Assembly: GCF_030580915.1 (NCBI RefSeq)
Contig: NZ_JAUQTA010000001.1
Coordinates: 1,116,001 to 1,180,000 of the forward strand
Source: Nocardioides jiangxiensis
GTDB taxonomy: Bacteria; Actinomycetota; Actinomycetes; Propionibacteriales; Nocardioidaceae
DNA length: 64,000 bases
Reading direction: 5' to 3'
Shown: piece after piece, positions 2,029 through 23,095 of the stretch
Numbering within the stretch: the first letter of the stretch is position 1
How the letters are laid out: every line of letters starts with the position of its first letter
Notes under the pieces: model-generated
Seen by the model: the letters and a program-made list of their open reading frames with translations, nothing else
Told to the model about the DNA's origin: nothing
The model's database searches: none
Program-made: the position numbers and the translations under genes

Positions 2029-2301
2029 TCAGGCGTTGGAGGTCGCCTCCTGCTGCGAGGCCTGGTTGGTGGCGTCGGTGGCCATCTGGCCGATCGCGGT
2101 GGCGGCCTGCTGGAGGGCCGCCTTGTGGGCGCTGTTCCACTCGTCGGCGAACGCCGTCGCGTCCGCGCCGTGCCAGTTCTGCTCAGCCGTCTGGATCTGG
2201 CCGTCGACGACCGAGATGACGTTGTTGAGCGCGTCCGACTGCTGGGTGAGCTGCGTGGCGACGTTCTTGATCGCCTCGATGTTCATACCGGTGAAAGCCA
2301 T
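2029..2301 (-). CDS. WXG100-family secreted protein (second of the pair)
   Basis: A 90-residue helical-hairpin protein of the EsxA/CFP-10 superfamily, exported by type VII-like systems. The turn carries WHG (in NWHGADA, near residue 44), flanked by two amphipathic helices rich in Gln, Ala and Thr. No C-terminal YxxxD/E secretion signal is present in either this protein or its neighbour, unlike mycobacterial Esx heterodimers. It is the last gene of the minus-strand operon, 60 bp after the other WXG100 gene, with AAGGAGA as ribosome-binding site upstream of the ATG. It probably dimerises with its neighbour and is a substrate or structural component of the FtsK/SpoIIIE machine encoded at 2726-7084. 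Confidence 0.9.
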   Translation of the reverse strand: MAFTGMNIEAIKNVATQLTQQSDALNNVISVVDGQIQTAEQNWHGADATAFADEWNSAHKAALQQAATAIGQMATDATNQASQQEATSNA

Positions 2302-2361
2302 GGTGCTTCTCCTTCCGAGGGCGGGTCAGCGGGACCCGAGAGATGGTGGGGGTGCCGCCGG

Positions 2362-2634
2362 TCAGCTGGCGGAGGTCTGCTCCTGCTCGTCCGCCTGCGT
2401 GGTCGCCTTGGTGGCGAGCTGGCGGAGCGCGTCCTCGGCCTGCGTCAGACCCGGCTTCTGGGCGTTGTTCCACTGGTCGATGAATGCGGTGGCGTCGTCA
2501 CCGTCCCAGTTGGTGTCCGCGTCGGCGATCTGCGCGTCGACGGCGGTGATCACGGTCTGGATCTCGTCCGCCTGGGCGGTCAGCTGCTGCGCGACGCCAC
2601 GGATGACCTCGACGTCCATTCCCATCATGCTCAT
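2362..2634 (-). CDS. WXG100-family secreted protein (first of the pair)
   Basis: A 90-residue WXG100 protein with WDG in the loop (NWDGDDATAF, near residue 43) between two helices, and an acidic Gln/Glu-rich C-terminus. It is a paralogue of the downstream gene, so the two likely form a heterodimer, as EsxA/EsxB do. Several ATGs cluster at the start (M1, M3, M4, M6); M1 is kept. A 17-bp conserved site and a plausible promoter lie in the 91 bp between this gene and the end of the secretion ATPase gene, so the pair can be transcribed separately from the rest of the operon, which fits a need for abundant substrate. Confidence 0.9.
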   Translation of the reverse strand: MSMMGMDVEVIRGVAQQLTAQADEIQTVITAVDAQIADADTNWDGDDATAFIDQWNNAQKPGLTQAEDALRQLATKATTQADEQEQTSAS

Positions 2635-2679
2635 GGATCTGTTCCCTTTCCTTGGTGGGGCGGTCCCCCAATGCCGAGA

Positions 2680-2723: not shown

Positions 2724-2725
2724 AC

Positions 2726-5700
2726 TCACGAGGAGCGGGCGACCTGCACCATCGACGAGCGACCCGACCCGACGAGCAGTCCTCGTCCGACCGGGAAGTC
2801 GTTGCGGTTGATCCGCGGGAACGCGGTGTTGAACATGCCGGCACCGCTCTCCTGGTCCGGCTGGAGCGCCAGACCGCGCCGCGCGCTCTTGACCAGGCCG
2901 AGGTAGCCCATGCCGGTCTTCACCGTGCTCACCTCGCCCTCGGCCACGAACCACTGCTCCTCCGCGACGCACGCCTTCACCAGCTGCTGGAACGCCGCGT
3001 CGGCCGGGGTGTTGACGAAGTCACCGGCCGCCTCCACGACGACCATCACCGGCGGGGCACCCGCCGCGCGGGCCTGGAGCTGCGCGGTCAGCTCGTTGGC
3101 GTTCTTGACGGTCTCCTCGACGGTAGTCGACGACGACGCCCAGAACGGCTGGCCGGCGAGCGCGGAGCGACGCGGGCCGAACCAGTGCAGCTCTGCCTCC
3201 GGATGCGTGCGCCGCATGGACGCGACCAGCGTCGCGAGGGCCGTCGAGCGGCCGCTGCCCGGCGGGCCGATGAGCAGGAAGGCCCCGGTCGGATCGATGT
3301 CGGCCGGCGCGAGGGTGTCGCCCGCGAGGCCGACCGTGACCAGGCCGTGCGCCGGCACCGGCAGGTCGGCGAGCGCGACCTCGGACTGCAGGCTCACGAT
3401 CGGAGGCGCTGTCGCCACGCCGGCGTCGCGCATGGCACTGGCCAGCGCCCGGACCTGCTCGGCCTGGCTGAGCGCGTCGGCCTTCTCCCCGAGCACCGCG
3501 ACCTGGACCTGGCGGTCGCCGTCGATCCCCCGGCCGGCAGGCGTGGTCTCGTCGAGGACGTCGTTGGCGACCCCGAGCATCGCGTAGTCGTCGGGCGTCG
3601 CCATGCGGAGCACGACGCGACGCTGCACCGCCGACGACATCGCCGTCGTGAGGCCGGTGCGGATCTCGGCCGCCATCACCACGTGGACGCCGACCGGGCG
3701 GCCCTCGCTGGCGATCGCGGTCAGCAGGTCGACGTACTTGAGGCGGTCGGCGGTCTCGTAGGCGGACCGGAACGCCGCGATGCCGTCGACCAGCAGCAGG
3801 ATCCGGGTCTCGTCGGGTGCACCGGCGAGACGGCGGTAGTCGGTGATCGTCGCCGCGTTGACGGCTGCGTAGCGGCCCGCGCGCTCGTCGACGACCTGGC
3901 GCAGCCAGGTGAGCAGGCGGACGATCCGCTCGTGGTCGGAGCCCGGGATGATGCTGCCCACGTGGGGCAGGTCCTCGAGCATCGCCAGGCCCCGCGAGCC
4001 GACGTCGATGCCGTAGACGTGGCACGGTCCGCCGCGGTGCGAGAAGCCCGCCGCCAGGGCGAGCGACCGCAGCAGCGTGCTCTTGCCGGAGCCACCCGTG
4101 CCGTAGACGGCCAGGTTGCCCTCGCGGTCGGGCCGGAAGGCGACGGCCGGCTGCGACTGCCGCTCGGGGTCGTCGGCGATCGCGAAGGTCAGCTCGTCGT
4201 CGCGGCGGCGCGTGGGCAGCGTCGCGATGTCGTAGACGGGACGCAGCTCCGGAAGCCAGGCCTTCCGCGGAGGGCGGAGCTCGGCGAGCTCGTTGGCCGC
4301 GATGATGTTCTGGACCAGCTTCTTGATGTCGGTCTCGGCGCGGTCCTTGTGGGCCGCGGGCGGCTTCTCCACCTCCCAGCGACGGCGCGAGCCGAGGCCG
4401 AGCTCCTCGACCACGATCTCGGGCGGCTCCGGCTCCGACGACGTCCAGCCGCCGGCGTACGCGGTCTGGAAGGAGGTGAGGCGGCGCGGCCCGGACTTCG
4501 ACATCGCGCGGCCCGGGATCGCCGGGTCGAAGTGCGCGGCGGCGTCGGTGCCGAGGACGTCGGTGGAGTCCATCTCGTCGGCCATGCGCAGCGCGACGCG
4601 GAGGTTGGTGTTGGCGCGGAGGTTGTCCTTGATGACACCGGCCGGTCGCTGGGTGGCGAGGATCAGGTGCAGGCCGAGCGACCGGCCGCGCTGGGCGACG
4701 TTGACGACGCCGTCGACGAACTCCGGCACCTCCTTGACCAGCGCCGCGAACTCGTCGACCACGATCACCAGCGAGGGCGGTGCGCCGACGATGCCGTGCT
4801 TCTCCATCTCCTGGAGGTCCTTGACGCCGTGCTCGGCGAAGAGCTCCTCGCGGAAGTGCAGCTCGGCGCTGAGCGACGTCAGCGCGCGCCGCACCATCGC
4901 CGGCGAGAGGTCGGTGACCAGGCCGATCGTGTGCGGCAGCTCGGTGCAGTCGGCGAACGCCGCGCCGCCCTTGTAGTCGACCAGCAGGAACGTGACGCGC
5001 TCCGGGCTGTGGGCCGCTGCCAGCGAGGTGATCCACGACTGCAGCAGCTCGGACTTGCCGGCACCCGTCGTGCCGCCGACCAGCGCGTGTGGGCCGTCGG
5101 CACGCAGGTCGAGCGCGTGCGGCCCTGCGGCCGTCTGGCCGAAGACCGCGCGGAGGTTGCCGGCACGCTTCGGGCGCTCGGCGGGGGCCTTGGGGCCGGA
5201 GAGGAGCGAGTTGTTCTCCAGCCAGCGCTCGACGATGACCTCGGGGTGGTCCTTGAGCTCGTGGCCCAGCAGGGCGAACTGCGTGACCGATCGCGGCAGG
5301 TCGCTGGCGTCCTCCGAACGTGCGCCCGCGTCGACCACCGGCGCGAGCGTGCGCGCCACGGTCATCGCCGACGCGGCGTCGAGGCCCTCGGCGGTCACCG
5401 GGCTGACCGTGTCGCCCTCGACGACGAAGCCCACGTGCGAGGTGCCGTCGGACGGGATGAGCTCGAGGAAGACCCGGCACGCCGCGGGCAGCGTGCGCGC
5501 CGAGGTGGCCAGCCAGATCACGTGGACGCCGAGCTCCGGGCCGCGCTCGGCCAGGTGGACCAGGCGCGCGTGGTCGGCCGTCGTGCCGGGCTCGACGAGC
5601 ACCACGACCGCGGGGCGCTTCTCCTCGTCGGTCCGGGCACCGGTGCGGCTCTCCAGCAGCGACTCGAGCTCGGCGAGCAGGGTGCCCGTGCCGACCGGGG

Positions 5701-7084
5701 TGCTGGCCAGGTGGTCGCAGCTGAGCGGGCTGCTGGCCGGCATCGTGTGCGGGAGCCAGGTCATCCAGGACCAGTCCGCGGCGTTCTCCGCAGCGAGGAA
5801 GCCGGTGACGACCAGCTCCGAGGGCGCGTGGAGGGTGACTGCCTGCACCATGAGCGCGCGGACCACCTCGAGCAGTCGCTGGCGCGGCCCGGCGACGCCG
5901 ATCGCGGTCTCGCCGAGCACACCCACGACGGGAACGCCGCCGACCAGCCGGTGCTCCTCGACGAGATCCTCGTACTGCTGCACGAGCTCGTACGGCGCCC
6001 GGCCGACGCGCGCGGTGGCGAACGACGAGCGGGTCGCGAGCGCCCCGACACCGAGCCGCAGCTCGGCGAACCGGGGCTGGTCGGGGCGGCGCGACCAGAC
6101 CAGCGGGCCGAGCTCGCGGACCGCCTCGGTGCAGTCGACGACCGAGGGGTGCTCGGCCAGCCGGGAGGCGACCTCCTCGGCCTGCACCCCGTCGATGTGC
6201 GCGGCCAGTGCCGCGAGCTCGGAGGCGAACTGCGCCTGGAGGTTCCGCCACTCCCGCTTGGCCGAGATCCTCGACTCGATGACCGACAGCGTCGCCATGA
6301 GCGGCGACATCACGATGAAGATCAGCGCACTGACCCGGTGGGTGACCAGGTAGAGCAGGGGGCCCATCAGCAGCGGTGCGACGTAGATGATCGGCGACAG
6401 CTTGCGCGGCGAGGGCTTCTCGGGCGCCTCGACGACGTCGAAGGTGTGGCCCTCGTGCACCTTCAGCACGACGGGCGACCGGATGAAGTCGACCTGGCCG
6501 GCGGTCTGCGCCGGCGTGACCAGCTGCGTGACGGTGAACTCCGTGTCACCGACCCGCACCCGGTCGGTCGGGCCGAGGATTGCGCGGACCGACGGGTCGC
6601 CGTCGATGTGGAGTCCGTTGGCGGAGCCCTGGTCGATCACCTCGATGACGTCGGAGACGTTGACGCGGACGTGGCGCCGGGAGACCAGCGGGTCGGACAG
6701 CACGATGTCGCAGTCGGCCTCGCGCCCGATCATCACCGAGCCGACCGCCAGCGGGAACTCCCGGCCGGCGTCGGGACCGGCGACGACCTTCAGCTTCGCG
6801 GCGGCGTTCTGCACCGTGGCCGCGGAGTAGCGGTCGCTGGCCGGAGCCAGCGTGAGGGTGACGCCCGAGGCCAGCCCGGCCTCGCCCACGTGGAGGGTGG
6901 GGTCGAGCAGCCGGCCGTGGTCGGCGAGCGCGAGCGTCACCGCGCGGTCGGAGACCCGCCCGCCCTGCGGGTCGGAGGCCGCGAGGTGGTTGGCGAGGTC
7001 GCCGATGGTGGCCGTCGCGTCGAGGTGCGCGACGAGGTCGGTCGCCGACCCTCCGGGGCGTCGCAGGGTGAACTTGAGCTTCAC
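2726..7084 (-). CDS. FHA-FtsK/SpoIIIE type VII-like secretion ATPase (EccC/EssC-like)
   Basis: A 1,452-residue membrane-anchored motor that should drive export of the WXG100 proteins. Residues 1-80 look like a ubiquitin/YukD-type beta-grasp domain; about 97-190 is an FHA domain (IGRE, SRRH, SANG); two hydrophobic segments lie near 231-268; three FtsK/SpoIIIE ATPase domains follow. Domain 1 is intact (GGTTGAGKS near 670, Walker B VIVVDEF). Domain 2 keeps a Walker A (GTGGSGKS near 994) but has VDG instead of an acidic Walker B pair, and domain 3 has Arg for Lys in Walker A (GPPGSGRST near 1272). The start is GTG at 7084, overlapping the previous stop codon as GTGA; an upstream in-frame extension to 7504 would lie inside the neighbouring gene and is low-complexity. 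The layout resembles firmicute EssC more than mycobacterial EccC; no EccB, EccD, EccE or mycosin gene is nearby. Confidence 0.88.
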   Translation of the reverse strand: MKLKFTLRRPGGSATDLVAHLDATATIGDLANHLAASDPQGGRVSDRAVTLALADHGRLLDPTLHVGEAGLASGVTLTLAPASDRYSAATVQNAAAKLKVVAGPDAGREFPLAVGSVMIGREADCDIVLSDPLVSRRHVRVNVSDVIEVIDQGSANGLHIDGDPSVRAILGPTDRVRVGDTEFTVTQLVTPAQTAGQVDFIRSPVVLKVHEGHTFDVVEAPEKPSPRKLSPIIYVAPLLMGPLLYLVTHRVSALIFIVMSPLMATLSVIESRISAKREWRNLQAQFASELAALAAHIDGVQAEEVASRLAEHPSVVDCTEAVRELGPLVWSRRPDQPRFAELRLGVGALATRSSFATARVGRAPYELVQQYEDLVEEHRLVGGVPVVGVLGETAIGVAGPRQRLLEVVRALMVQAVTLHAPSELVVTGFLAAENAADWSWMTWLPHTMPASSPLSCDHLASTPVGTGTLLAELESLLESRTGARTDEEKRPAVVVLVEPGTTADHARLVHLAERGPELGVHVIWLATSARTLPAACRVFLELIPSDGTSHVGFVVEGDTVSPVTAEGLDAASAMTVARTLAPVVDAGARSEDASDLPRSVTQFALLGHELKDHPEVIVERWLENNSLLSGPKAPAERPKRAGNLRAVFGQTAAGPHALDLRADGPHALVGGTTGAGKSELLQSWITSLAAAHSPERVTFLLVDYKGGAAFADCTELPHTIGLVTDLSPAMVRRALTSLSAELHFREELFAEHGVKDLQEMEKHGIVGAPPSLVIVVDEFAALVKEVPEFVDGVVNVAQRGRSLGLHLILATQRPAGVIKDNLRANTNLRVALRMADEMDSTDVLGTDAAAHFDPAIPGRAMSKSGPRRLTSFQTAYAGGWTSSEPEPPEIVVEELGLGSRRRWEVEKPPAAHKDRAETDIKKLVQNIIAANELAELRPPRKAWLPELRPVYDIATLPTRRRDDELTFAIADDPERQSQPAVAFRPDREGNLAVYGTGGSGKSTLLRSLALAAGFSHRGGPCHVYGIDVGSRGLAMLEDLPHVGSIIPGSDHERIVRLLTWLRQVVDERAGRYAAVNAATITDYRRLAGAPDETRILLLVDGIAAFRSAYETADRLKYVDLLTAIASEGRPVGVHVVMAAEIRTGLTTAMSSAVQRRVVLRMATPDDYAMLGVANDVLDETTPAGRGIDGDRQVQVAVLGEKADALSQAEQVRALASAMRDAGVATAPPIVSLQSEVALADLPVPAHGLVTVGLAGDTLAPADIDPTGAFLLIGPPGSGRSTALATLVASMRRTHPEAELHWFGPRRSALAGQPFWASSSTTVEETVKNANELTAQLQARAAGAPPVMVVVEAAGDFVNTPADAAFQQLVKACVAEEQWFVAEGEVSTVKTGMGYLGLVKSARRGLALQPDQESGAGMFNTAFPRINRNDFPVGRGLLVGSGRSSMVQVARSS

Positions 7085-9333
7085 GAGGATCCCTCCATGC
7101 GGCGGAAGCTGGCCAGGTTGAGCGCGACCTTCCAGCGGGCCAGGCGCGAGAGCGGAGCGTCCATCCGGGCGCGCTGCTCGTCGACCTGCCTCCACAGGTG
7201 CTCGGCCTGCTCGTCGGTCGGCTCGGTGCGCCCGAAGACGCCGGCGTCGGCGCTGCGGGCGACGTCGCCGAAGCCCTCGACCGGGATGGCGGCTGCCTGC
7301 TCCCGCCGGGTCGCGCGGCCGCTCACGGCGTGGCCGTGGTCGCGGGCGTGGTCGAGCAGGTCGCGCCAGGCGGCGGCCACGCGCGCGGCGGCCGTGCCCG
7401 TCGTACGCCGCAGGCGGGTGCGGCGGCGCTTGAGGAAGAGCACCAGGCCGACGAGGGCGGCGGCCACCAGCAGCGGCAGCACGACCCACTTGAGGATCCA
7501 CCACACGAACCCGGGCACCTGGAACGACGAGCCGTGGTGCTGGTCGAGGCGGTCGAGGCTGTCCTCGACCGGGTCCCCCGCGCTGGACGGCGGGCGCACC
7601 GGGGCCGGCGGCGGGATCACCTTGCCGGCGACCAGCTTCTGCAGCTGTGGCGCCTCCTGCTGCGGCGGCGTGTCGCTCATGAACCGGTCCTGGGGCAGCG
7701 TGCGCCAGGTGCCGTCGGCCGCCCGGAGCTCGACCCAGGCGTGGACGTCGCTTCCCTTGATGATGCCGCCGGGAGGGACCTTCGCGCCCATCACGACGCG
7801 TGCGGGCACACCGGCCTGGTTGGCCAGGATCGCCATCATCGCGGCGTACTGCTCATCGTCGCCGGCCATCTGCCGGTCGGCGGCGGTGAACTCGGTGAGG
7901 CGCGACAGCGAGTGGCCGGGGCGGAACTGCTCCGCGCCCGCTCCCCCGTCGGTGTACTTGCCGGTCGTCTTCATCTCGTCGGCGATCGCGAGCACCCGCT
8001 CGAGGGGCGAGGTGGCGGACTGGCCCGCCATCTGCGCCGCGAGGCTCTGGAAGCGGCTGGCGGCCTCGACGCCGGGCAGCGAGCCGGACCACGTGGTCAG
8101 CCCCTTGTCGAGCCCGTCGTCGGGCAGGACCGCCTGGAACGTGTAGGTGTCGCCCGGCGCGATGCCGCCCGGCACCACACCGGTGTTGGTGGCCAGGTTG
8201 TAGCGGAAGGAGTCGGTCTGGTCGGCCAGGCCCGTGCCGAGCCTGATGCCGGTCAGGGCGCCCGCCTCCGGGAGCCAGACGCCGCGGTAGCCGTCGAGCA
8301 CCTTGACCCGGGCGGTGACCTTGCGGCCGGTGGCCGGGTTGGCGATCACCGAGCCGACCTTCTGGAAGGTGTCGGCGTTGCCCGGCTCCAGGCCGGAGTC
8401 GTTGGCCGCGCCGAAGACGATGCCGTTGTAGCTGTCCATGCCGGCGAACCGGATCCGGGTGCCCTCCGGCAGGCCCTTCACGTCGAGCAGCGGCTTGTCG
8501 TTGAGCTTGTACTGCGGGGGGCCGTCGTAGCCCTTCGTGTACTTCCGGAACGACGCCAGCGGCGACGGGTACTGCCCGACGTCGAACGGCGGCTCGACCC
8601 AGGTCCGCAGGACCGTGCGCTCCTCCGACGTGCCCGGGAGGTGCGGGCCGACCGCGACGGCGCCGAGCGCCGCGAGCCCGCACAGGCCGGCGCCGAGGAG
8701 GACGCGGCTGCGGTTGCGGCTGCCGATGGTGACCGTGGCCGAGCGCCACCGGGCCCGGATGACCACCCAGGCGACGCCGAGGACGGCGACCAGGAGCCCC
8801 GTGACGGCCAGGTGGCTGGCGTCCTTGACGCCGAGCAGGATCACGGCGGCGACGAGGGCGAGCGCCCCCACCGGCGGCACCCATGCCGAACGCAGCCGGC
8901 GCGCGAGGGTCAGCGTGCCGGCGCCCGCGACGAGGCCGAGGAGGTAGGGCAGGGCGAGGAGCGGTCCGCCGTCGACCGGCGGAAGCGTGGTGAGCAGCTC
9001 CTTCCAGCCGTGCACGGACTTGTCAGCGAGGTCGACGAGGGTGCCCGGCAGCGGCAGCGCCGAGGCAGCGCTGTCGGGCCCGGCGACCGCACCGCCGAGC
9101 AGGAAGAACGCGACGACCACGAAGAGCGCCAGCACCACCACCGGCTGGGCGAGCTCGACCGCCAGGTGGGCCAGCAGGGCACCGAGCAGCAGGCCGAGCA
9201 CGCCGGCGAGCAGGAAGGACCAGCCGTGGAAGGTGTCCTTGAACCCGTACATCGCGATGGTGCCGAGGCCGAGCACGAAGAGCAGGTCGACGAGCGCGCG
9301 ACCGGTCGGGACGAGCGATGCCTTGCGCGCCAT
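7081..9333 (-). CDS. Transglutaminase-fold membrane protein, catalytic Cys replaced
   Basis: A 750-residue protein with about six N-terminal membrane helices (to about residue 200), a large extracytoplasmic region containing a transglutaminase-like fold, one more membrane helix (WWILKWVVLPLL, near 610) and a basic cytosolic tail of about 120 residues. In active members the core reads G-x-C-E-x-F/Y-A; here it is GDDEQYA (codon GAT at the Cys position), so the nucleophile is absent. The His motif (DVHAWVE) and a possible Asp (LPQDRF) remain. It is probably a binding or assembly factor rather than a cross-linking enzyme. It belongs to the MoxR-DUF58-transglutaminase module common in actinobacteria and overlaps the secretion ATPase gene by 4 nt, which argues for tight coupling of translation. 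Confidence 0.85.
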   Translation of the reverse strand: MARKASLVPTGRALVDLLFVLGLGTIAMYGFKDTFHGWSFLLAGVLGLLLGALLAHLAVELAQPVVVLALFVVVAFFLLGGAVAGPDSAASALPLPGTLVDLADKSVHGWKELLTTLPPVDGGPLLALPYLLGLVAGAGTLTLARRLRSAWVPPVGALALVAAVILLGVKDASHLAVTGLLVAVLGVAWVVIRARWRSATVTIGSRNRSRVLLGAGLCGLAALGAVAVGPHLPGTSEERTVLRTWVEPPFDVGQYPSPLASFRKYTKGYDGPPQYKLNDKPLLDVKGLPEGTRIRFAGMDSYNGIVFGAANDSGLEPGNADTFQKVGSVIANPATGRKVTARVKVLDGYRGVWLPEAGALTGIRLGTGLADQTDSFRYNLATNTGVVPGGIAPGDTYTFQAVLPDDGLDKGLTTWSGSLPGVEAASRFQSLAAQMAGQSATSPLERVLAIADEMKTTGKYTDGGAGAEQFRPGHSLSRLTEFTAADRQMAGDDEQYAAMMAILANQAGVPARVVMGAKVPPGGIIKGSDVHAWVELRAADGTWRTLPQDRFMSDTPPQQEAPQLQKLVAGKVIPPPAPVRPPSSAGDPVEDSLDRLDQHHGSSFQVPGFVWWILKWVVLPLLVAAALVGLVLFLKRRRTRLRRTTGTAAARVAAAWRDLLDHARDHGHAVSGRATRREQAAAIPVEGFGDVARSADAGVFGRTEPTDEQAEHLWRQVDEQRARMDAPLSRLARWKVALNLASFRRMEGSS

Positions 9334-9334
9334 G

Positions 9335-10654
9335 TCAGAGACCCCACTTCAGCAGGCCGGGGAGCTCGGACAGGGCGCCGAGCGTGAGCAGCGGCAGGTC
9401 CGCGACCGCCTTCAGCGACGCGGTGGCCTGCGGGTCGATGATCATCGCGATCTTGCCGACCTCGATCGGGAAGTGGGCGGCCGCCCGCTGCAGCGTGGTG
9501 AACGGCGCGTGGGGGCCGGTCACGAGGCAGACCAGGCTGGTGTCCGGGGCCAGGCGCGCACCGCGGCCGGCGACGTCCATGATCCGGTCGCCGGACAGCT
9601 CGGCGCGCGAGCAGGCGTCGAGGGCCGAGCGGCCCGTGCCCCGCGTCATCGCGTGCTGTCCGCTCAGGAACGTCGCGTCGAAGCCGTCCATGATGGCGCG
9701 CACCAGCAGGGAGGCGGCGGCGCTGATCGCGAGCTCGTAGTCCTCCGGGTCCCGGTACGACGCAGGGTCGCTGTCGACGATCACGTTGATGTGGGAGCGC
9801 CGGGTGTCGAGGAACTGCCGCACGAGCAACTGGCCGTGGCGGGCCGACGAGCGCCAGTGGATGTGGCGGAGGTCGTCACCGGGGAGGTACTCGCGCAGGG
9901 CGTGGAAGGCGAGGTCGGACTGCGAGACGTTCTCGGAGACGTTGCCCTCGAGGTCCCGGATCAGTCCCGCCCCCAGCGGCTCGAGCGGTGTGATCACCGG
10001 GTGCACGAAGATCTCGTGCACGTCGGACCAGGTCACCTCGCGGCGGAACAGGCCGACCGGGTCGCCGCGGCCGGTCGTCACGGGGCCCACCTCGATGACG
10101 CCACGACGCTCGGTCGGCACGACGAAGAGCTCGGCGTGCGTGCTGCCGGGACGCAGTGCGGGCAGATCGAAGGCGACACCGCCCTGGCCCACCGGCAGGT
10201 CCAGCCGGACCGGTAGCAGCGGCGACTTCGCCTTGTTGCGGACCTCGACCTCGCCCGTGACCGGGTTGCCCACGGTCACCCGCGGCGGCTCGGTGGTCAG
10301 CCGGACCTCGAGGTGGGTGTGGCCGATCATGAAGAGGGCGGCGAGGACCAGCAGCGTCAGGATGCCGGCGGCAACGACCGCCATCTCGCGCCAGCCACCC
10401 CACGCGGCAGCGAGCCAGGCGATCGCGCCGATGACCAGCAGCGCCCGCGCGGCCGGGGTGAACGTCGCCCACGCCGGCCCGACCCTGCGGGCCACCGGTG
10501 CGGCGACCTCGGTCGCACGCTCCCGCGCCGTGCCGAGGAGGGGCACCACCCTGCCCGCCGCCGTGCGCAGCGCGTCCGTCATGCCGCGCGCGGCACCGGC
10601 CGCCCGGCGTTCACCGGACGGCGCCTCCGCGCGCCTTCGCTTCACTCGGGCCAT
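9335..10654 (-). CDS. DUF58 membrane protein
   Basis: A 439-residue DUF58 protein: a basic N-terminus, a pair of membrane helices near residues 70-115, a beta-rich region, the family signature YLPGDDLRHIHWRSSARHG near 240-260, and a VWA-like C-terminal domain. The metal-site motif of the VWA fold (DxSxS) reads DSDPA at VIVDSDPAS, so the third and fifth positions are changed and the metal site is doubtful. DUF58 proteins are normally partners of MoxR ATPases, encoded directly upstream here, and the start codon of the transglutaminase-fold gene follows 1 nt after this stop codon. The role within the secretion system is inferred from operon position only. Confidence 0.85.
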   Translation of the reverse strand: MARVKRRRAEAPSGERRAAGAARGMTDALRTAAGRVVPLLGTARERATEVAAPVARRVGPAWATFTPAARALLVIGAIAWLAAAWGGWREMAVVAAGILTLLVLAALFMIGHTHLEVRLTTEPPRVTVGNPVTGEVEVRNKAKSPLLPVRLDLPVGQGGVAFDLPALRPGSTHAELFVVPTERRGVIEVGPVTTGRGDPVGLFRREVTWSDVHEIFVHPVITPLEPLGAGLIRDLEGNVSENVSQSDLAFHALREYLPGDDLRHIHWRSSARHGQLLVRQFLDTRRSHINVIVDSDPASYRDPEDYELAISAAASLLVRAIMDGFDATFLSGQHAMTRGTGRSALDACSRAELSGDRIMDVAGRGARLAPDTSLVCLVTGPHAPFTTLQRAAAHFPIEVGKIAMIIDPQATASLKAVADLPLLTLGALSELPGLLKWGL

Positions 10655-10658
10655 GGGT

Positions 10659-11627
<969 letters not shown>

Positions 11628-17600: not shown

Positions 17601-17972
17601 GACCGCCTGCTCGTCGAGGCCCGTCGCCATCGCAGCGTCGATGGGGAGCAGCAAGCTGGAGGCCCGGTTCACCGAGATGACCGCCGAGCCGTCCTGGAGG
17701 ACGTCGAGGTTGGGGTTGGAGGTGAACTCGCTGCCGTCGAAGACGCGCCCGTCGATCTGCGCGACCGGCACGTTCTGCCGACCGACCGCGCCCATCGCCT
17801 GGTTGGTCACCCAGACGCCGCCGTCGTTCAGCTCGGCCTTGTGCACCGGGTAGCCGTCAGCGTTGACCGCGTAGGTGACCAGGACGCCCGAGACGACCGC
17901 CAGCGCCGTCCACGACGCGACCGTCACCCTGTGGCGGCGAAGAAATGCCCGAGTACCAGCCCGAGAGCGCAC
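11682..17972 (-). CDS. Giant membrane-anchored Ig-like/fibronectin type III surface protein
   Basis: A protein of about 2,096 residues and the first gene of the secretion operon. After a basic N-terminus there is one membrane helix (about 15-35), then an extracytoplasmic region: about 40-390 with repeated Gly-rich propeller-like strands, about 400-1500 with tandem Ig/cadherin-like modules each carrying a VLxND-type turn (DNA near 16695, 16090, 15780, 15480 and 14860), about 1500-1990 with five fibronectin type III-like domains, and a Cys-rich, Trp-rich C-terminal domain of about 100 residues. GTG at 17972 is preferred as start because AAGGGGG lies 6 nt upstream; ATG at 17978 abuts that sequence and TTG at 18008 is also possible. 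It may form an adhesive or scaffold structure of the machine. The exact role is unknown. Confidence 0.82.
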   Translation of the reverse strand: MRSRAGTRAFLRRHRVTVASWTALAVVSGVLVTYAVNADGYPVHKAELNDGGVWVTNQAMGAVGRQNVPVAQIDGRVFDGSEFTSNPNLDVLQDGSAVISVNRASSLLLPIDAAMATGLDEQAVTSAGSDTLFGGGSIGALDPSTGTLWASTVDPDSGTAQLTGLTKDAKPVATVGGGAIGAAGTDGTLYAASGEDGKVVTLRRAADTFEKPEVDDLSGDHEGGLAQMTVVGGTPVLVDEKGNLLTPSDSLGNVGAGARLQQSGPGSDDVLVATPDALVAVAVDGGGKREVAKVGAQTSVAAPVEMANGCAFAAWGSGETGTLVSACGDAKASVNTFDIHDGSELVFRVNRNQIVLNDEKSGMTWTVTDSEPQLISNWEAFRQETSKKDDDKSHKTESKTTQPPQAKTDELGARDGRTTVLNVLDNDLIASDGILSIVDVKGVTRDDVHVRIAPDRQSLLATVDPGASGVASFRYTISDGTGKKTSQDDGEVRLTLRNDNGSGKPALREHAEAHTYPVAAGGVVEMAVTPDWRDKQYGDPVVVQSVKASGDLDVSTTALGLIRAEASAGSKGGVQTISYSVTTGGVTVPGSVKVDVVPAGTRTEPATAEPDVVSGEAGGPITLKPLDNDIPGADGSDAGAKLALAGRVAPTGGLDVDTDLESGEVTITGSRPGTYFLDYRAGFGAAARADGKIRVDITAPTPEGNRPVATPDVSAVHGLSPVTIDVLANDFDPRGRMLVVQNAEPSSPDSQLEVAVIDGRWVRVNAVDGTMSPKSQSVTYTISNGDATAEGSINVTQRDALSGKENAPIPQTDRITVRAGDTAAAPVLDNDATPSGDPVGLVLDASVEPIGELRVLPKVGTAYVSGRQVRYVAPADVSGPTDVDVQYVVENTGDPTAETAVGTLKVHITPAPSAKNPDLAPTPRALEGRVVQGDLVTLKLPPTGSDPDGDSVAVTGVATAPKLGRILAFGANSLTYQAYPDASGTDDFTYEVTDQFGESAIGHARVGVVQAGEPQAPVAVNDSWLADPSRTVDVDALGNDLRTPGTRVDILPLEDHGTDAKLQSDQGPVSVHAPDDGKTRNVIYTISNGLAESRGVVSIEGRKGYDNPPVTRDLFATPKAGADTVEVNVLAAVFDVDGPEDKMKLDEVTGVGESKDGEKPPIHDGKVTIPVKDVAQVLAYRVLDDEGAAAAGAIYVPAKPTGTPYLKPGASISMDPSSTTDVDLSDLVEDPEGDPVVLTTVDGISASPADRLSVKGKDKDTLTLTSTKSEGPGSVVFEVSDRAKLTDPEAHTAFISVPVQVGELKPVINCPSLPIDVPEGGVSKSIDIASVCHVWTSDPRQARDLTFTADWKQEVTGVDVSTDGGSVQLKASADAHRGDTGVIAVGAKGYSASGKLLVRVVALPAPKLAPIQLDTEAGKPVTVDVARYVTSPLPSSSRDIKVTSVSAQGGASATSSVEGSKVTFTPQPDTDGVMRYRLEVSDVGGSTTSGRPKATGEVELAVVARPDAPSGLAAGQEMLANTVALTWHTPDNNGKRIDGYEVQYSGPSSGTFHCSGTPCRVTGLKNGDPYTFKVRAHNATQQNGGWSEWSNTAKATPDALTGPPLDPAVVLQRDNALTVKWSKPAPCDCSDVQKYRVSWPGGVRDLSAGTLQTTVPAPNGDVITVRIMALNKKGIQTNNGPSTSVTGTGAGKPAAPGAPSLSPTNRPGNASKAINISWSPVGANGPGPVAYQVERSGGPGTTIVCAWATGTSCNDEVANDGTVYSYRVQAKNAEADSPRETTAAGKATHISDWGNASQIEASAPPNAPVITSLKPTGQDGTATITFDVGASHGRSNTVTCESSAGACGTWTFPTAGQSGVTRTLSGFPDGSTTTVTLRECNGGAANMCATSNSAQVVTYGPIGAVSINATPDSPATGDRTTNWSISVDPNGAPVHWTVRSSVNGVIAQGDSGNGPFNKSGGETLGYSQSVTYTVTVTDASGHGRAGRSDSDGARTGANPPPPLSVSVSKGASCSGSGCPGAQSACAATCWWIDVTTSGFSGGVSCDLHNVSDGSVWWSWSQGGNTTANSGAWNGKTNGFYATCSRSGEYARSANAW

Positions 17973-18006: not shown

Positions 18007-18035
18007 AAGGTATCTGCAAGCGGACTAGACGTCGA
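18007..18035 (-). promoter_or_regulatory. Candidate promoter of the secretion operon
   Basis: On the minus strand TCGACG (18030-18035) and TACCTT (18007-18012) are 17 bp apart, the same pattern as the WXG100 promoter candidate. A GGACTAGACG element (18022-18031) lies within the spacer and is repeated beside the divergent promoter. Confidence 0.35.
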
Positions 18036-18064
18036 TGGCGGAACGGTGAATTCGCCACGATCCG

Positions 18065-18102: not shown

Positions 18103-18144
18103 TGTCATGCAAGGCTCAGGCCCACATATAGTCCAACTGGACTA
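18103..18144 (+). promoter_or_regulatory. Candidate promoter and overlapping operator of the PP2C-kinase operon
   Basis: TATAGT (18127-18132) is a good -10 hexamer; TGTCAT (18103-18108) is a weak -35 with 18-bp spacing. The inverted repeat TAGTCCA-AC-TGGACTA (18129-18144, 7-bp arms, perfect) overlaps the -10, the position of a repressor site. Confidence 0.45.
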
Positions 18145-18233
18145 GACGGCGGTGGGGTGAGCACGGAAGCCTGTCTGTCCCGAACGGACGAACGACGGGG
18201 ATCCGCACCGGCCGGTGCATCACGGGAGAGCAG

Positions 18234-19028
18234 GTGGCTGTGCAGCTGGAGATGGGGGCGGCGTCCCACGTCGGCGCGGTCCGGGCCCTCAACGAGGACG
18301 CCTGCCTGGCCGCCACGCACCTGGCCGTGGTCGCCGACGGCATGGGCGGGCACGCGCGCGGCGACGTCGCGAGCCGACTCACCGTCGACGCGTTCCGTCC
18401 CCTCGCCGGTCGCCGCGACCTCTCCGCCGACGACGTACGCCGTGCGGTCGTCGCCGCCAACGCGGCCCTCCTCGCCGACGCCCGGACCAACCCGGAGCAC
18501 GACGGCATGGGGACGACGCTGACCGGCATCGCCCTGATCGACCACTTCGGCTCTCCGCACTGGCTGGTCTTCAACGTCGGCGACTCGCGGGTCTACCGCC
18601 TCGGCGACGGCGGCATCCGGCTGCTCACCCACGACCACTCCGAGGTCCAGGAGCTCGTGGACGCCGGCCGGCTGACCGATGAGCAGGCGCGCATCCACCC
18701 GCTCCGCAACATCGTGACCCGGTCCCTGGGCTCCGACCCCGCGCCCGAGGTCGACGTCTGGATCTTCCCCCCGGCCGCGGGCGACACGTTCCTGCTGTGC
18801 TCGGACGGCCTCACCAACGAGCTCGACGACGCCACGATCCTGCAGATCGGCCGCGACTCCGCCTCCCCCGAGTCGGGAGCGGCACGGCTGGTCGCAGCGG
18901 CGGTCGAGGCCGGCGGCCGCGACAACGTCACGGCAGTCATCGTGCGCCTGCCCGGCACCGACCTCGCCGACGACGCCGCACTGGCGACGACCGGCCCACG
19001 CGCCCGCTTCCTGGAGGACGAGCGATGA
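18234..19028 (+). CDS. PP2C-family Ser/Thr protein phosphatase (PstP-like)
   Basis: A 264-residue soluble PPM/PP2C phosphatase that removes phosphate from Ser/Thr residues using two metal ions. Metal-binding motifs are all present: NEDA near residue 21, DGMGGHARG near 37, GTTLTG near 92, SDGL near 190 and GRDNVT near 230. Unlike mycobacterial PstP it has no membrane helix or extracellular part. The GTG start has GGGAGA about 8 nt upstream. Its stop codon overlaps the start of the FHA gene (ATGA), and the kinase follows, so it most likely resets the phosphorylation set by that kinase, including on FHA-bound partners of the divergent secretion operon. Confidence 0.92.
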   Translation: MAVQLEMGAASHVGAVRALNEDACLAATHLAVVADGMGGHARGDVASRLTVDAFRPLAGRRDLSADDVRRAVVAANAALLADARTNPEHDGMGTTLTGIALIDHFGSPHWLVFNVGDSRVYRLGDGGIRLLTHDHSEVQELVDAGRLTDEQARIHPLRNIVTRSLGSDPAPEVDVWIFPPAAGDTFLLCSDGLTNELDDATILQIGRDSASPESGAARLVAAAVEAGGRDNVTAVIVRLPGTDLADDAALATTGPRARFLEDER

Positions 19029-20635
19029 CCACCACGTTCACGCCCGGCGAGGCCGTGGCGATCTGCGGCGAGAGTGCCCGGATGCTCGTCGGCATCCGGA
19101 TCGACGACCCGCGCCTCCCCCAGCTCTGGGACGCCGTCCGGCCGTCGTCCGCGACCGCCGTCGACGGTGTGCTCGGGCTGCTGCTCGACGAAGGCTTCGG
19201 CGCGATGCCGGCCTTCGCGGTCGTCACCGGTGACGCCGCGACCGCCCGGGTCGTGGTCCGCCACCCCGCGGTGGTCGAGGCGGTCGTGGACGGCACGCCC
19301 GTCACGCTGACCGCGACCCCCGGTGGGACCTGGGCCGACGTGACCCTCGAGGGCGCCACGTCGTTCGTGCTGCGGGCGGACGCGGGGGTCGGCACCACGG
19401 TCCAGCTGCCGCTTCACGTCGGTGTCACGCCTGCGGGCGCGGTCACGGTGGCGGTGGCCTCTGCGGATGCCGCGCTCGCGCCGGACGAGGCCGCCCCGAT
19501 CGCATCCCCGACCGTCGATGAGGAGCGCTCACAGGGCGAGGTCGCAGCGGCGACCCCTCCCCGGGCGACCACTCCCGGTGCCCCGCAGCGTGAGCCGGTC
19601 ACCGCGCCGGCCGAGGACGTGCCCGACGACGTGGCCGACGAGCTCGACGAGCCGACCGGCGACGCGGCCGACGACCCCGACCCACTGGCGGCGCGGGCGC
19701 AGACGTTCCATGCACTGCTGACCTCGGACACCTCCGACCGTGATGCGCTCCTGGCCCAGCTGGCCGAGGAGCCCGCGGAACCCGACGCACCTGCAACCAC
19801 CGCGGTCGACGAGGAGGTGTCCGCGCCGGCGACCTCGCTGACGGCGGTGTGGAAGGCCGACGACCCGGTCGCGTCCGATGACCAGACGGATGAGGCGGAC
19901 GAGCCCGAGGAGGCGGCCACGCCGGCCGCCGGCTCAGCTCCCGCTCCTGCTCCTGCTCCCAGCAACGGACTCATCGACGGTGTCCCGTGGCTCAGGGGCG
20001 ACTGGACCCCTCCGCCGGCCGAGGAGCGTCGTGCGCCGTCGTTCGAGACTCCGGCGCGGCCGGCCCCGCCGCCCGCTCCCGCCGCGAAGCAGCCGGAGCC
20101 GGCGGCCGAGGGACGCGAGCAGCAGACGCTCAACCGTGCCGACCTGCTCAAGGAGCTCGGGTCGGCTGGCATCGTCGGACCGAGCGTGCTCGCGGTCGAC
20201 TGCCCGGCCGGGCACCCCACGCCTGCGCACGAGCCGACCTGCCGGCTGTGCGGCACGCCGGTGAGCGACAGCCAGGAGCCCCGCCAGATCCCGCGGCCCG
20301 CGCTGGGTGCGCTGGTGCTGGCCAACGGTGACCGCCTCGTGCTCGACAAGGACGCGGTCCTGGGCCGTGCGCCGTTCGAGCCGGAGGGGTCAACCGAACG
20401 CCCCCACCTGCTCCGCGTCGGCGAGTCCGGCGAGATCAGCCGCCAGCACGCCCGGATCACCCTCGACGGCTGGCACGTCATCGTGCGCGACCTGGGCACG
20501 GCCAACGGCACGACGCTGACCCTGCCCGGCGGCTCGCCGCAGCAGCTGCGGGCCCACGAGGACTACCAGCTCGAGAACGGCGCCGAGATCGGCATCGCCG
20601 ACATCGTGACGCTGCGCTACGAGGTGAGGCCGTGA
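19025..20635 (+). CDS. FHA-domain protein with zinc-ribbon-like motif
   Basis: A 536-residue protein. The first 140 residues form a folded region of unknown type (ICGESARMLVGIRIDD at its start). A long acidic, Ala/Pro-rich and probably disordered linker follows (about 150-370), then a C4-type or C3H zinc-ribbon-like motif (CPAGH at 393, CRLCG near 406), then a C-terminal FHA domain (about 425-536; LGRAPFE, ISRQHARI, TANGT) with the residues needed to bind phosphothreonine. ATG at 19025 is used because it overlaps the phosphatase stop codon; an upstream in-frame start would lie within that gene. It is probably a phospho-dependent adaptor linking the kinase to the secretion ATPase. The partner is not visible from sequence. 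Confidence 0.85.
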   Translation: MTTTFTPGEAVAICGESARMLVGIRIDDPRLPQLWDAVRPSSATAVDGVLGLLLDEGFGAMPAFAVVTGDAATARVVVRHPAVVEAVVDGTPVTLTATPGGTWADVTLEGATSFVLRADAGVGTTVQLPLHVGVTPAGAVTVAVASADAALAPDEAAPIASPTVDEERSQGEVAAATPPRATTPGAPQREPVTAPAEDVPDDVADELDEPTGDAADDPDPLAARAQTFHALLTSDTSDRDALLAQLAEEPAEPDAPATTAVDEEVSAPATSLTAVWKADDPVASDDQTDEADEPEEAATPAAGSAPAPAPAPSNGLIDGVPWLRGDWTPPPAEERRAPSFETPARPAPPPAPAAKQPEPAAEGREQQTLNRADLLKELGSAGIVGPSVLAVDCPAGHPTPAHEPTCRLCGTPVSDSQEPRQIPRPALGALVLANGDRLVLDKDAVLGRAPFEPEGSTERPHLLRVGESGEISRQHARITLDGWHVIVRDLGTANGTTLTLPGGSPQQLRAHEDYQLENGAEIGIADIVTLRYEVRP

Positions 20636-22401
20636 GCGCCGACGAGCGGGGCCCCGAGCTCCCCGGCCTGGAGTTCCAGCACAAGCTGGGATCGGGCGGG
20701 TTCTCCGACGTCTACCTGTACGAGCGGCAGCGGCCGCGCATGCAGGTCGCGGTGAAGGTACTCAAGGCCGACATCATGGACGCCGCACAGCGGGCCCAGT
20801 TCGTGGCCGAGGCGGACACGATGGGCGAGCTCGCCGAGCACCCCTACATCGTCCCGGTCCTCGGCGCCGGCACGGCATCGGACGGCCGGCCCTACCTCGA
20901 GATGCGCTACTACCCCGGGCCCGACCTGGCCGAACGGGTCAAGGCGCAGCCGCTGTCGGTGCCCGACGCGCTGAAGATGGGCATCCAGCTGGCGAGCGCG
21001 ATCGAGACCGCGCACCGGGCCGGGATCATCCACCGCGACATCAAGCCGCAGAACGTCCTGATCAGCTCCTACGGCGTGCCCGGCCTGACCGACTTCGGCA
21101 TCGCCGGCCGCCCCGGTGACGCCGACGAGGACGAGAACGTCGGCGTCTCGATGCCGTGGTCCCCTCCCGAGGTCCTCACCGGCGCCTCCAACGGCTCGCA
21201 GGCCTCCGACGTCTACTCCCTCGGCGCCACGCTGTGGAACCTCCTGGTCGGGCGGTCGCCGTTCAGCATCCCGGGCGACGACAACTCGCAGCGGGCGCTC
21301 TTCACCCGCATCGTGCACTCCAAGCCGCCGATGACCGGCCGCGCCGACGTGCCGAGCAGCCTCGAGCGGCTGCTGGCGCAGGCGATGGCGAAGAAGCCGG
21401 AGCACCGTCCGCGCAGTGCGATGGACCTGGCCCGCCACCTGCAGCGGGTGGAGCAGGAGCTGCGGCTGGCCCGCACCGAGATCGTCGTCCTCGAGCACAC
21501 CCACGACGCGGTCCGGGGCGCGGGCAGCGAGCCGTTCTCACAGACCCCGACGCAGACGCTTCCCGAGACGACGCCCGAGGGTGCCGAGCGGACGACCCTG
21601 CGTGTGCCGGTGGCCCCGTCCACCCCCGTTCAGGGACCACCGTCGGGCGGCAGCGCACCGACGGCCCGCCGGCCCGTGCGGGCCACGACGGGCGACGCGC
21701 CGACGACCGCCCGACCGACCCGGGCCGCACCGGGAACGGCACCGGGAACGGCGCCGGGAGCGGCGTCGCGGGCTGCGTCGGGAGCGGCGCCGACGACCGC
21801 CCGGCCGACGCGGCCCACCGGCGCGCCACCTGCCAGCGTGGGCGCAGGAGCTGCATCCGGGGCCGCCCCGACCATGGCCCGGCCGGCCCGAGCCGCAGCT
21901 CCTGCCGCTGCCCCGACGGCCGCGCGTCCGGTGCGTGCGGACGAGCGGCCGCGCGGCGACGGGTCCGAGGGCGCCACCGGAACCGGCCGCTGGCTCGCGA
22001 TCGGCGCAGCCGTGGCGCTGCTCGCGGCGTCCGTCGCGATCGGCGCTTTCCTCTCCCGCGGCGGTGACGCGGACGAGCCGAAGCCCGGCACGCTCACGCA
22101 GGGCGGCGGGGCGAGCGGCCCGGCCGACGTCAACGTGGACCTGGACCCGGCCATCCCCGTGGTCCGGGTGGTGAAGGTCGCCGGCGACAAGGTCACCTTC
22201 GCCTGGGACCGTGAGCAGAAGGGCGACTGGTTCCAGTACGAGGTCGTCTCGAGCAACGGCGCGGTCGCCCGCCAGTGGAAGCGCACGGACAAGACGTCCG
22301 CGACCGTGACCGCGCTCCCCGACGGCGTCACCTGCATCGCGGTGCAGGCCCGCCGGGGCACGTCCGGTTCCACCGACGCCGGCCGAAAGTGCGCGAGGTG
22401 A
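20632..22401 (+). CDS. Transmembrane Ser/Thr protein kinase with FN3-like ectodomain
   Basis: A 589-residue PknB-type (Hanks) kinase. The N-terminal catalytic domain (about 12-275) has GSGGFSDVY, catalytic Lys42 (VAVKVLK), HRDIKPQN with Asp136, and DFG. A long Ala/Pro/Thr linker (about 300-450) contains degenerate PTTARPTR-type repeats. One membrane helix (about 453-475) is followed by a fibronectin type III-like extracellular domain of about 90 residues instead of PASTA repeats. FN3 domains also occur in the giant surface protein of the divergent operon, so the sensor may contact it. The GTG start overlaps the FHA gene stop codon (GTGA). Confidence 0.92.
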   Translation: MSADERGPELPGLEFQHKLGSGGFSDVYLYERQRPRMQVAVKVLKADIMDAAQRAQFVAEADTMGELAEHPYIVPVLGAGTASDGRPYLEMRYYPGPDLAERVKAQPLSVPDALKMGIQLASAIETAHRAGIIHRDIKPQNVLISSYGVPGLTDFGIAGRPGDADEDENVGVSMPWSPPEVLTGASNGSQASDVYSLGATLWNLLVGRSPFSIPGDDNSQRALFTRIVHSKPPMTGRADVPSSLERLLAQAMAKKPEHRPRSAMDLARHLQRVEQELRLARTEIVVLEHTHDAVRGAGSEPFSQTPTQTLPETTPEGAERTTLRVPVAPSTPVQGPPSGGSAPTARRPVRATTGDAPTTARPTRAAPGTAPGTAPGAASRAASGAAPTTARPTRPTGAPPASVGAGAASGAAPTMARPARAAAPAAAPTAARPVRADERPRGDGSEGATGTGRWLAIGAAVALLAASVAIGAFLSRGGDADEPKPGTLTQGGGASGPADVNVDLDPAIPVVRVVKVAGDKVTFAWDREQKGDWFQYEVVSSNGAVARQWKRTDKTSATVTALPDGVTCIAVQARRGTSGSTDAGRKCAR

Positions 22402-22405
22402 CGGC

Positions 22406-23095
22406 GTGAAGGCGACGGTCGACTACTGCGGCGAGATCCACGAGGTGACCGCCGACGCCCAGGTCTGCGTCGGTCGCGAGGGCGACCTCGTGATCGACGA
22501 CAACCCCTACCTGCACCGACGCTTCCTGGAGTTCACCTACGTCGACGGACTGCTGTGGCTCGCCAACGTCGGCAACGCACTGACGGCGACGATCGCCGAC
22601 GGCCACGGCCTGGTGCAGACGTGGCTCTCCCCCGGCGCCCGCGTGCCGCTGGTCTTCCCGCACTGCGTCGTGTGGTTCACGGCCGGCCCGACGACCTACG
22701 AGCTCGACGTCTCGCAGGACGCGGCGCCGTTCGCCACCGCCGTGGAGGAGCAGCCCGGCGACGGCGCCACGACCATGGGCCGGGTCAGCTTCACCCCTGA
22801 CCAGCGCCTGCTGATCCTCGCCCTGGCCGAGGACATCCTCCGTCGGGGCAACCGGGGCGCGGGCGCCATCCCGCACTCCCGCACCGCCGCGGAGCGGCTC
22901 GGCTGGACGACGACGAAGTTCAACCGCAAGCTCGACAACGTCTGCGAGAAGCTCGCGAAGATGGGCGTCCGTGGTCTGGTCGGCAGCACCGAGCGCACGG
23001 CGAGCAACCGCCGCGTGCGGCTGGTCGAGTACGCCCTTGCGGCACGGCTGGTGACCATGGACGACCTGGTCTGGCTGGACTCGATCGACGCCTGA
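22406..23095 (+). CDS. FHA-like/helix-turn-helix protein
   Basis: A 229-residue protein with an FHA-like N-terminal half (VGREGDLVI, then YLHRR) and a C-terminal helical region (about 125-229) that looks like a helix-turn-helix domain: SRTAAERLGWTTTKFNRKLD followed by an Arg-rich wing. The Ser that normally contacts phosphothreonine in the SxxH motif is replaced (PYLH), so binding of phosphopeptides is uncertain. The GTG start is 4 nt after the kinase stop, with GAGGTG as ribosome-binding site over that stop codon. As the last gene of the kinase operon it could be the transcription factor that recognises the conserved sites at 2707 and 18065; that is inference. Confidence 0.8.
   Translation: MKATVDYCGEIHEVTADAQVCVGREGDLVIDDNPYLHRRFLEFTYVDGLLWLANVGNALTATIADGHGLVQTWLSPGARVPLVFPHCVVWFTAGPTTYELDVSQDAAPFATAVEEQPGDGATTMGRVSFTPDQRLLILALAEDILRRGNRGAGAIPHSRTAAERLGWTTTKFNRKLDNVCEKLAKMGVRGLVGSTERTASNRRVRLVEYALAARLVTMDDLVWLDSIDA

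Follow-up and report, generated by a model that had tools for sequence, protein, structure and literature searches.

The window analyzed here, a stretch of 64,000 nucleotides from Nocardioides jiangxiensis (G000:C1:1116001-1180000, in a genome of 3.01 Mb and two contigs), contains at positions 2029-23095 a locus of 11 genes in two divergent units. In this locus, an FHA-FtsK/SpoIIIE ATPase related to the motors of type VII secretion and two WXG100 proteins are encoded together with a Ser/Thr kinase, a PP2C-type phosphatase and an FHA protein, and with four genes, hereafter called the block, for a giant surface protein, a MoxR ATPase, a DUF58 protein and a transglutaminase-fold protein. We lean, with modest confidence, towards the reading that these genes constitute one system, namely a WXG100 exporter gated by phosphorylation, whose envelope part is formed by the MoxR, DUF58, pseudo-transglutaminase and giant proteins. 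Systems that lack the usual Ecc partners had been described before: T7SSd and T7SSe, kinase-linked variants with FHA ATPases, were published in 2024 (Garrett, Higginson, Palmer; PMC11217815). What is new is the union with the PFNA operon of Bifidobacterium, the lost nucleophile of the transglutaminase fold, and a predicted ubiquitin-like domain apparently fused to the ATPase; the initial annotation of the window had seen none of these three.

Conserved linkage of the gene set

The minus-strand unit encodes, in the order of transcription, the giant Big_9/fn3 protein, MoxR, DUF58, the transglutaminase-fold protein, the ATPase, WXG100 protein B and WXG100 protein A, with intergenic gaps of 1 to 91 bases and an overlap of the transglutaminase-fold and ATPase genes. 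The divergent plus-strand unit encodes PP2C, the FHA protein, the kinase and a protein of 229 amino acids. This arrangement, as described in the initial annotation, was borne out by Pfam for ten of the genes, and the gene for the 229-amino-acid protein is conserved beside the ATPase in many relatives.

An 18-row alignment of the ATPase, used to scan named genomes, recovered at least 571 relatives, and the best 80 of 571 loci were kept. Among the 65 of these named loci with at least 8.5 kb of upstream sequence, 49 have at least two block genes on the ATPase strand and 16 have fewer; in the 49 loci the block genes are nearly always upstream of the ATPase (downstream in L073). Many loci are collinear (L163, L164, and L139), with the order giant protein, MoxR, DUF58, transglutaminase fold, PP2C, FHA protein, kinase, 229-amino-acid protein, ATPase and WXG100. 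An alternative order (L138, L155, L158, and L162) is kinase, 229-amino-acid protein, giant protein, MoxR, DUF58, transglutaminase fold and ATPase. Many actinobacterial genomes have this set too, usually with an unchanged gene order; the grouping is therefore not a matter of chance, and an accidental assembly of neighbours was ruled out by this conserved order. The co-occurrence also agrees with the initial annotation, which had treated the genes as one linked set.

Within one bacterial order, an ATPase match at E<=1e-100 was found in 249 of 396 genomes, and the score exceeded 1200 bits in about 128 genomes (counted by eye). From the best-scoring list, 60 loci were sampled, consisting of every second entry and the last one, with two swapped to avoid a contig end or repetition; some genomes are common to the named and the sampled loci. 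Neighbouring genes were counted above 150 bits (MoxR, kinase, PP2C, giant and FHA proteins) or 40 bits (the others); the profiles used derive from relatives of this locus and miss divergent partners. Of 53 sampled loci with at least 11 kb of upstream sequence, 35 have at least three of the four block genes beside the ATPase on the same strand, and 33 of these 35 also have at least two of the PP2C, kinase, 229-amino-acid protein and FHA protein genes. WXG100-like genes were detected in the downstream sequence (median 2.0 kb) of 40 of the 60 loci, none of them on the opposite strand. At the level of whole genomes, the block or its transglutaminase-fold gene is present in 49 of 53 genomes with a high-scoring ATPase versus 20 of 48 others (Fisher p 2.8e-8, the genomes not being independent); the four exceptions are two genomes without a block-type transglutaminase-fold gene and two that were not searched for it elsewhere. 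Among the congeners G001-G024, a strong full-length relative of the ATPase is present in only 7 of 24, and the distribution within the genus is thus patchy.

The motor and the block proteins

The closest named relative of the ATPase, from Nocardioides jejuensis, is 95% identical. The best PDB matches, over most of the length, are 4nh0 of the EccC type (E 9.5e-110) and 9qks, YukB (E 8.5e-107). The protein scores 511 bits against the EssC model TIGR03928 (cut-off 778, residues 199-1221), 351 bits against the EccCa model TIGR03924 (cut-off 509), 301 bits against the EccCb model TIGR03925 (cut-off 347), and 67 bits against the chromosomal FtsK model. Judged from these matches, the ATPase is type VII-like and related to EccC and EssC, but it reaches the curated threshold of neither. 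In a tree of 109 ATPases, that of the window belongs to an 87-member clade (support 0.954), which includes several lower-scoring ATPases, and the Bifidobacterium-type ATPases form a separate 15-member clade (0.987); the rooting and backbone of this tree are weak, and no Olsenella sequence was included.

The FHA domain of the ATPase resembles those of the phosphothreonine readers GarA and FhaA. The phosphothreonine-binding residues R, S/T, H and N are all retained in 126 of 131 distinct ATPases scoring at least 1300 bits versus 4 of 20 scoring 600-1300 bits (p 5.6e-14), whereas the FHA domain of EssC is reported to be without the phosphothreonine site (PMC11217815). The initial annotation had proposed that the kinase and phosphatase gate the ATPase through its FHA domain, and the near-total conservation of these residues in high-scoring ATPases fits such a putative gate.

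The N-terminus of the ATPase seems to contain a fused ubiquitin-like domain. An AlphaFold model of residues 1-80, built from a 47-row alignment, has means of 80-96 in blocks of 10 residues and the order strand-strand-helix-strand. Weak profile matches are largely to ubiquitin-like Pfam families, the best being YukD (E 0.0035, in 3 of 36 members), and there is a weak PDB match to a ubiquitin design (E 0.017). A structure search aimed at this domain returned two match lists filled by the FHA domain of the ATPase; thus, the predicted fold rests on the strand order of the model and the weak profile matches. Among lower-scoring ATPases, 16 of 26 N-termini exceed the best score of 5200 shuffles (10.5 bits), some only through scattered pieces. 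A similar domain seen by eye in the Bifidobacterium-type ATPase was rejected, with profile scores of 0.6-1.2 bits, below the best shuffle.

The transglutaminase-fold protein has as its closest PDB sequence, with a weak match (E 0.011), 6g49, a protein-glutamine gamma-glutamyltransferase that we take to be TgpA. In the alignment, the stretch GFCAHYA of 6g49 corresponds to GDDEQYA of the window protein. No Cys was found at the catalytic site in any of 52 locus sequences (that of the window plus 51 from relatives, with matches of more than 450 residues and 250 bits) or in any of 120 listed bifidobacterial-type homologs, all of which read G-x-x-E-Q-[YF]-[AS]; the sequence from L041 has a Cys a few residues beyond the site. 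His is present at the catalytic His position in 34 of the 52 locus sequences and in none of the 120. Since the catalytic Cys is lost in all of these sequences, the protein probably has no enzymatic activity. Near this site, E494, Q495 and A497 are invariant in 14 sequences, which suggests a conserved non-enzymatic role. In the bifidobacterial-protein homologs P0235, P0237 and P0239 (1214-1221 amino acids), precomputed Pfam assignments place DUF58 and the transglutaminase core on a single polypeptide; such fusions are in line with both acting together.

The giant protein is anchored by its N-terminus, and hydropathy found a C-terminal helix in none of 27 relatives. An EccB-like start was considered and set aside: the predicted N-terminal domain is a beta-propeller, and the 50 matches listed in the second search with it are propellers of many families, with no EccB among the matches listed.

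Relation to known systems and alternative explanations

The published PFNA operon of Bifidobacterium comprises pkb2, fn3, aaa-atp, duf58, tgm, prpC, a hypothetical gene and fha, and has been proposed as a sensor of host immune signals and studied for cytokine binding and host adaptation (PMC8430577, PMC6803598). All five core families (kinase, fn3 protein, MoxR, DUF58, and transglutaminase fold) are present in the window and are matched by the same profiles in the Bifidobacterium-type block, and the window also has the phosphatase and FHA additions; the window, however, spreads the five families over two divergent units. FtsK and WXG100 are not part of the operon, and neither term occurs in the main texts of the two papers. 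A literature search, which left out subscription papers and preprints, found no publication naming both PFNA and type VII secretion, and the term T7SSd in a single paper. In the genomes G190, G136 and G311 (regions L098-L103 and L118-L123), the order kinase, giant protein, MoxR, DUF58, transglutaminase fold is identical to the published PFNA core order. In G190, the transglutaminase-fold protein shares 90% identity with named proteins of the Bifidobacterium asteroides group, every organism name among the 120 listed of its 253 homologs is Bifidobacterium, and the ATPases of G136 and G311 are nearly identical to that of G190.

With the classical systems T7SSa (EccC) and T7SSb (EssC/YukB), the locus shares an FtsK-type ATPase with transmembrane helices and several ATPase domains and the WXG100 partners, and EssC also has N-terminal FHA domains. 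A plain T7SSa or T7SSb was nevertheless rejected, as the ATPase is below the curated cut-offs. Furthermore, no EccB, EccD, EccE or mycosin domain and no EssA, EssB or EsaA domain was found by Pfam in 17 open reading frames scanned at and beside the locus, although the 229-amino-acid protein, which has no Pfam match, could still be a very divergent form of one of the latter three. The absence of the Ecc proteins and mycosin stated in the initial annotation thus holds for these reading frames and could not be extended to the genome: a genome-wide search gave no EccB, but its control was silent too, and EccD, EccE and mycosin were searched at the locus only. The replacement of the membrane complex by a MoxR-DUF58-transglutaminase unit, also proposed there, is plausible as a hypothesis.

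In the system that we favour, the kinase would sense an outside cue and phosphorylate a partner protein, possibly MoxR, which the kinase of the matching gene set in Bifidobacterium is reported to phosphorylate (PMC8430577). The FHA domains of the ATPase and of the separate FHA protein would bind the phospho-mark, and PP2C would remove it. MoxR and DUF58 might help to assemble the pseudo-transglutaminase and the giant propeller/Ig/FN3 protein into an envelope structure, which would stand in for EccB/D/E or EsaA/EssA/EssB, and the membrane ATPase would pass the WXG100 pair through it.

Several observations weigh against this single system. WXG100 export by the ATPase is inferred from the genes of the locus, which includes no obvious effector, and both WXG100 proteins score below the NCBIfam cut-off; of the two named in the initial annotation, B exceeds the Pfam cut-off and A does not (24.1 versus 27.3 bits). 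The link between an intact FHA site and the block is not strict, because block genes adjoin the ATPases of L139, L174 and L182, which are three of the five high-scoring ones whose site is altered. In 15 of the 53 sampled loci the ATPase is alone, and a WXG100 gene was detected in 6 of these 15; of the remaining loci, L168 and L190 have signalling genes only and L169 has two of the four block genes. In the three Bifidobacterium-type genomes, the block and the type VII-like locus, whose ATPase has a kinase gene of its own, are 32-33 kb apart on opposite strands and do not form one operon. Finally, among the 48 genomes that have no high-scoring ATPase, the 20 mentioned above with a block-type transglutaminase-fold gene (more than 300 bits) comprise 9 of 14 and 4 of 14 further genomes with lower-scoring ATPases and 7 of 20 in which no ATPase match reached E<=1e-100. 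The genomes with lower-scoring ATPases were a manual choice: the first 14 were chosen mostly because they are small, and the further set followed the table from its top, omitting G063, G069 and G071 (G063 is in the first set). Of the seven block genomes without an ATPase match, G057, G074 and G091 have only FtsK-type reading frames of 622-661 amino acids, and the other four have reading frames of 1262-1487 amino acids with partial ATPase matches. The block occurs without this motor, and therefore it has another function too and is not a part of secretion only.

These observations bring up a possible but more doubtful explanation, in which two machines share one switch: the block, together with the kinase, would build and regulate a surface adhesin or wall structure by itself, as PFNA may do, and the ATPase with the WXG100 proteins a separate minimal exporter recruited beside it. 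The lone ATPases, the distant block of the Bifidobacterium-type genomes with an ATPase of another clade, and the block genomes without a high-scoring ATPase, in which the block itself was seen in the regions fetched, are in its favour. Against it stand the whole-genome association of the block with high-scoring ATPases given above, and the interleaving of both sets in one gene order in many loci. The block is, moreover, seldom missing from the genomes of lone ATPases: its transglutaminase-fold gene is elsewhere in 13 of the 15 (12 of 14 searched at more than 300 bits, and G045, where the whole block is present), and at that threshold was not found in the genomes G365 and G436. Likewise, of 16 genomes behind named loci that were tested separately, 15 are without a transglutaminase-fold gene at the ATPase, and it is present elsewhere at more than 200 bits in 11, weakly in 2, and in 2 not at all. 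In 13 regions from those 11 genomes, the giant, MoxR, DUF58 and transglutaminase-fold genes are together in all 13, and in L201 and L203 another FtsK-type gene follows the block. In 14 lower-scoring ATPase loci, no nearby block gene scored above the thresholds; L128 has one 38-bit match to the giant-protein profile. High-scoring motors are thus rarely without the block, and the block is often without such a motor. The initial annotation had named independent occurrence of the two gene sets in most genomes as evidence that would speak against it; such independence was found for the block and not for the high-scoring ATPases. Near the lone ATPases, inspection by eye showed WXG100-like proteins with GFVTD replacing W-x-G in L096 and L170 and, in L063, a longer helical protein encoded downstream, which these ATPases may have as partner and substrate.

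That the locus is a plain T7SSd (kinase, FHA ATPase, WXG100, giant Ig protein) with mere neighbours is improbable. T7SSd is described as consisting of a kinase, a giant Ig protein, WXG100, the single-transmembrane TsdH, and the FHA ATPase TsdC (PMC11217815). Parts of the same kinds as TsdA, TsdC, TsdD and TsdI are indeed present in the window: T7SSd and T7SSe share with it an FHA FtsK-type ATPase with a conserved phosphothreonine motif, WXG100, a transmembrane kinase and a giant Ig-like protein, and T7SSe, in addition, PP2C and a separate FHA protein (the same report). However, the window ATPase falls in another clade than the Bifidobacterium-type ATPases, which are presumed to be T7SSd, although the backbone of the tree is weak. 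The window adds PP2C, an extra FHA protein, two WXG100 proteins, and MoxR, DUF58 and transglutaminase-fold genes, and neither MoxR nor transglutaminase occurs in the main text of PMC11217815. TsdI is described with a Sec signal and a C-terminal transmembrane helix, in contrast to the N-terminal anchor of the giant protein. T7SSd is reported to be without a ubiquitin-like protein, which its authors called surprising (PMC11217815); in the window, such a part is predicted, with weak profile support, as the N-terminal domain of the ATPase and not as a separate protein.

Still less probable, to the point of being hardly credible, is that the locus has no part in secretion, and that the FtsK-family ATPase and the kinase act in the control of cell wall or division with the WXG100 proteins as accessories. 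The FtsK fold is common to DNA pumps, and TgpA of Pseudomonas aeruginosa, which like the window protein is a polytopic transglutaminase-domain protein encoded in a cluster with its neighbours, is reported to be needed for viability (PMC3507681). TgpA is active and keeps its Cys-His-Asp triad according to that report, whereas the window protein and all sequences examined are without the catalytic Cys. The EssC and EccCa scores of the ATPase far exceed that of the chromosomal FtsK model, and the WXG100-like genes downstream of so many sampled loci also argue against this explanation.

We tentatively extend the single-system reading to a widespread, unnamed class of phosphothreonine-gated type VII systems of Actinomycetes, in which the pseudo-transglutaminase and the propeller giant would form the envelope channel, the ubiquitin-like part would be fused to the motor, and PFNA would be a version parted from its ATPase. 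If so, two separate literatures, on the bifidobacterial PFNA operon and on type VII secretion variants, would be joined. The transglutaminase-fold protein would likely have a structural role, not an enzymatic one, and the fused domain is a possible answer to where the ubiquitin-like part hides in such systems. Furthermore, phosphothreonine gating of a type VII motor would become directly testable in soil actinobacteria.

Other features of the locus and the genome

The coordinates are collected in Table 1. Some starts were refined: the ATPase begins with GTG at 7084 (1452 amino acids, overlapping the upstream stop), the FHA protein at 19025 (536 amino acids), and the giant protein probably with ATG at 17978 (2098 amino acids), chosen from the sequence.

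Table 1. Features of the locus, with positions in the window
Feature	Position	Strand	Basis
WXG100 protein A, 90 aa, W-x-G at NWHG	2029..2301	-	Pfam PF06013 24.1 bits (cut-off 27.3); NCBIfam TIGR03930 30 bits (cut-off 44.85)
WXG100 protein B, 90 aa, W-x-G at NWDG	2362..2634	-	Pfam PF06013 35.6 bits (cut-off 27.3); TIGR03930 39.5 bits (cut-off 44.85)
FHA-FtsK/SpoIIIE type VII-like ATPase (TsdC-like), 1452 aa, two predicted transmembrane helices near residues 229-269	2726..7084	-	Pfam
FHA domain of the ATPase; phosphothreonine residues R121, S135, H138, N156	6521..6802	-	Pfam, relatives
Predicted ubiquitin-like (beta-grasp) domain, ATPase residues 1-81	6842..7084	-	AlphaFold and weak profile matches
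Polytopic membrane protein, transglutaminase fold without catalytic Cys (GDDEQYA)	7081..9333	-	Pfam (transglutaminase core)
DUF58 protein, two predicted transmembrane helices	9335..10654	-	Pfam
MoxR AAA+ ATPase (AAA_3)	10659..11627	-	Pfam
Giant surface protein: N-terminal transmembrane helix, predicted beta-propeller, Ig (Big_9) and FN3 domains; no C-terminal transmembrane helix	11682..17978	-	
Predicted beta-propeller, giant protein residues 52-380	16839..17825	-	
17-bp direct repeat copy 1, divergent intergenic stretch, possible operator	18022..18038	+	
17-bp direct repeat copy 2	18139..18155	+	
PP2C-type phosphatase	18234..19028	+	Pfam
FHA protein, 536 aa, FHA at C-terminus	19025..20635	+	Pfam
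Ser/Thr kinase (PknB-like), one predicted transmembrane helix, short ectodomain	20632..22401	+	Pfam
Conserved 229-aa protein; FHA-like and possible helix-turn-helix by eye only	22406..23095	+	No Pfam match; beside the ATPase in many relatives

The kinase has the Lys, HRD and DFG motifs. The FN3 ectodomain that the initial annotation gave it was not recovered, as the ectodomain has neither an fn3 match in Pfam nor a PDB match. Its label of FHA and helix-turn-helix for the 229-amino-acid protein also found no support, with no Pfam match at E<=5 and FHA-like residues visible by eye only. Between the divergent units, the two copies of the 17-bp repeat are identical at 15 of 17 positions and 117 bases apart, and could be operators for the 229-amino-acid protein. 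The second copy overlaps a short palindrome, TAGTCC-N4-GGACTA, seen by eye. A role in anti-phage defence was rejected: the PADLOC matches are generic (ATPase, kinase, and one 27-bit match for PP2C), and the transglutaminase-fold, DUF58, MoxR and 229-amino-acid proteins have none.

Elsewhere in the same genome, at G000:C1:1313582-1316704 (L218, about 8582-12083), a second WXG100 pair is divergent from a shorter FtsK-type ATPase (a reading frame of 958 amino acids); this ATPase has no FHA match, and the six reading frames scanned there have no EccB- or EccD-type Pfam match. Beside glnE-like and glutamine synthetase genes, L219:8197-9384 (minus strand) encodes a 395-amino-acid protein with an N-terminal WXG100 match of 23 bits, below the cut-off, which is a possible exported protein encoded outside the locus.

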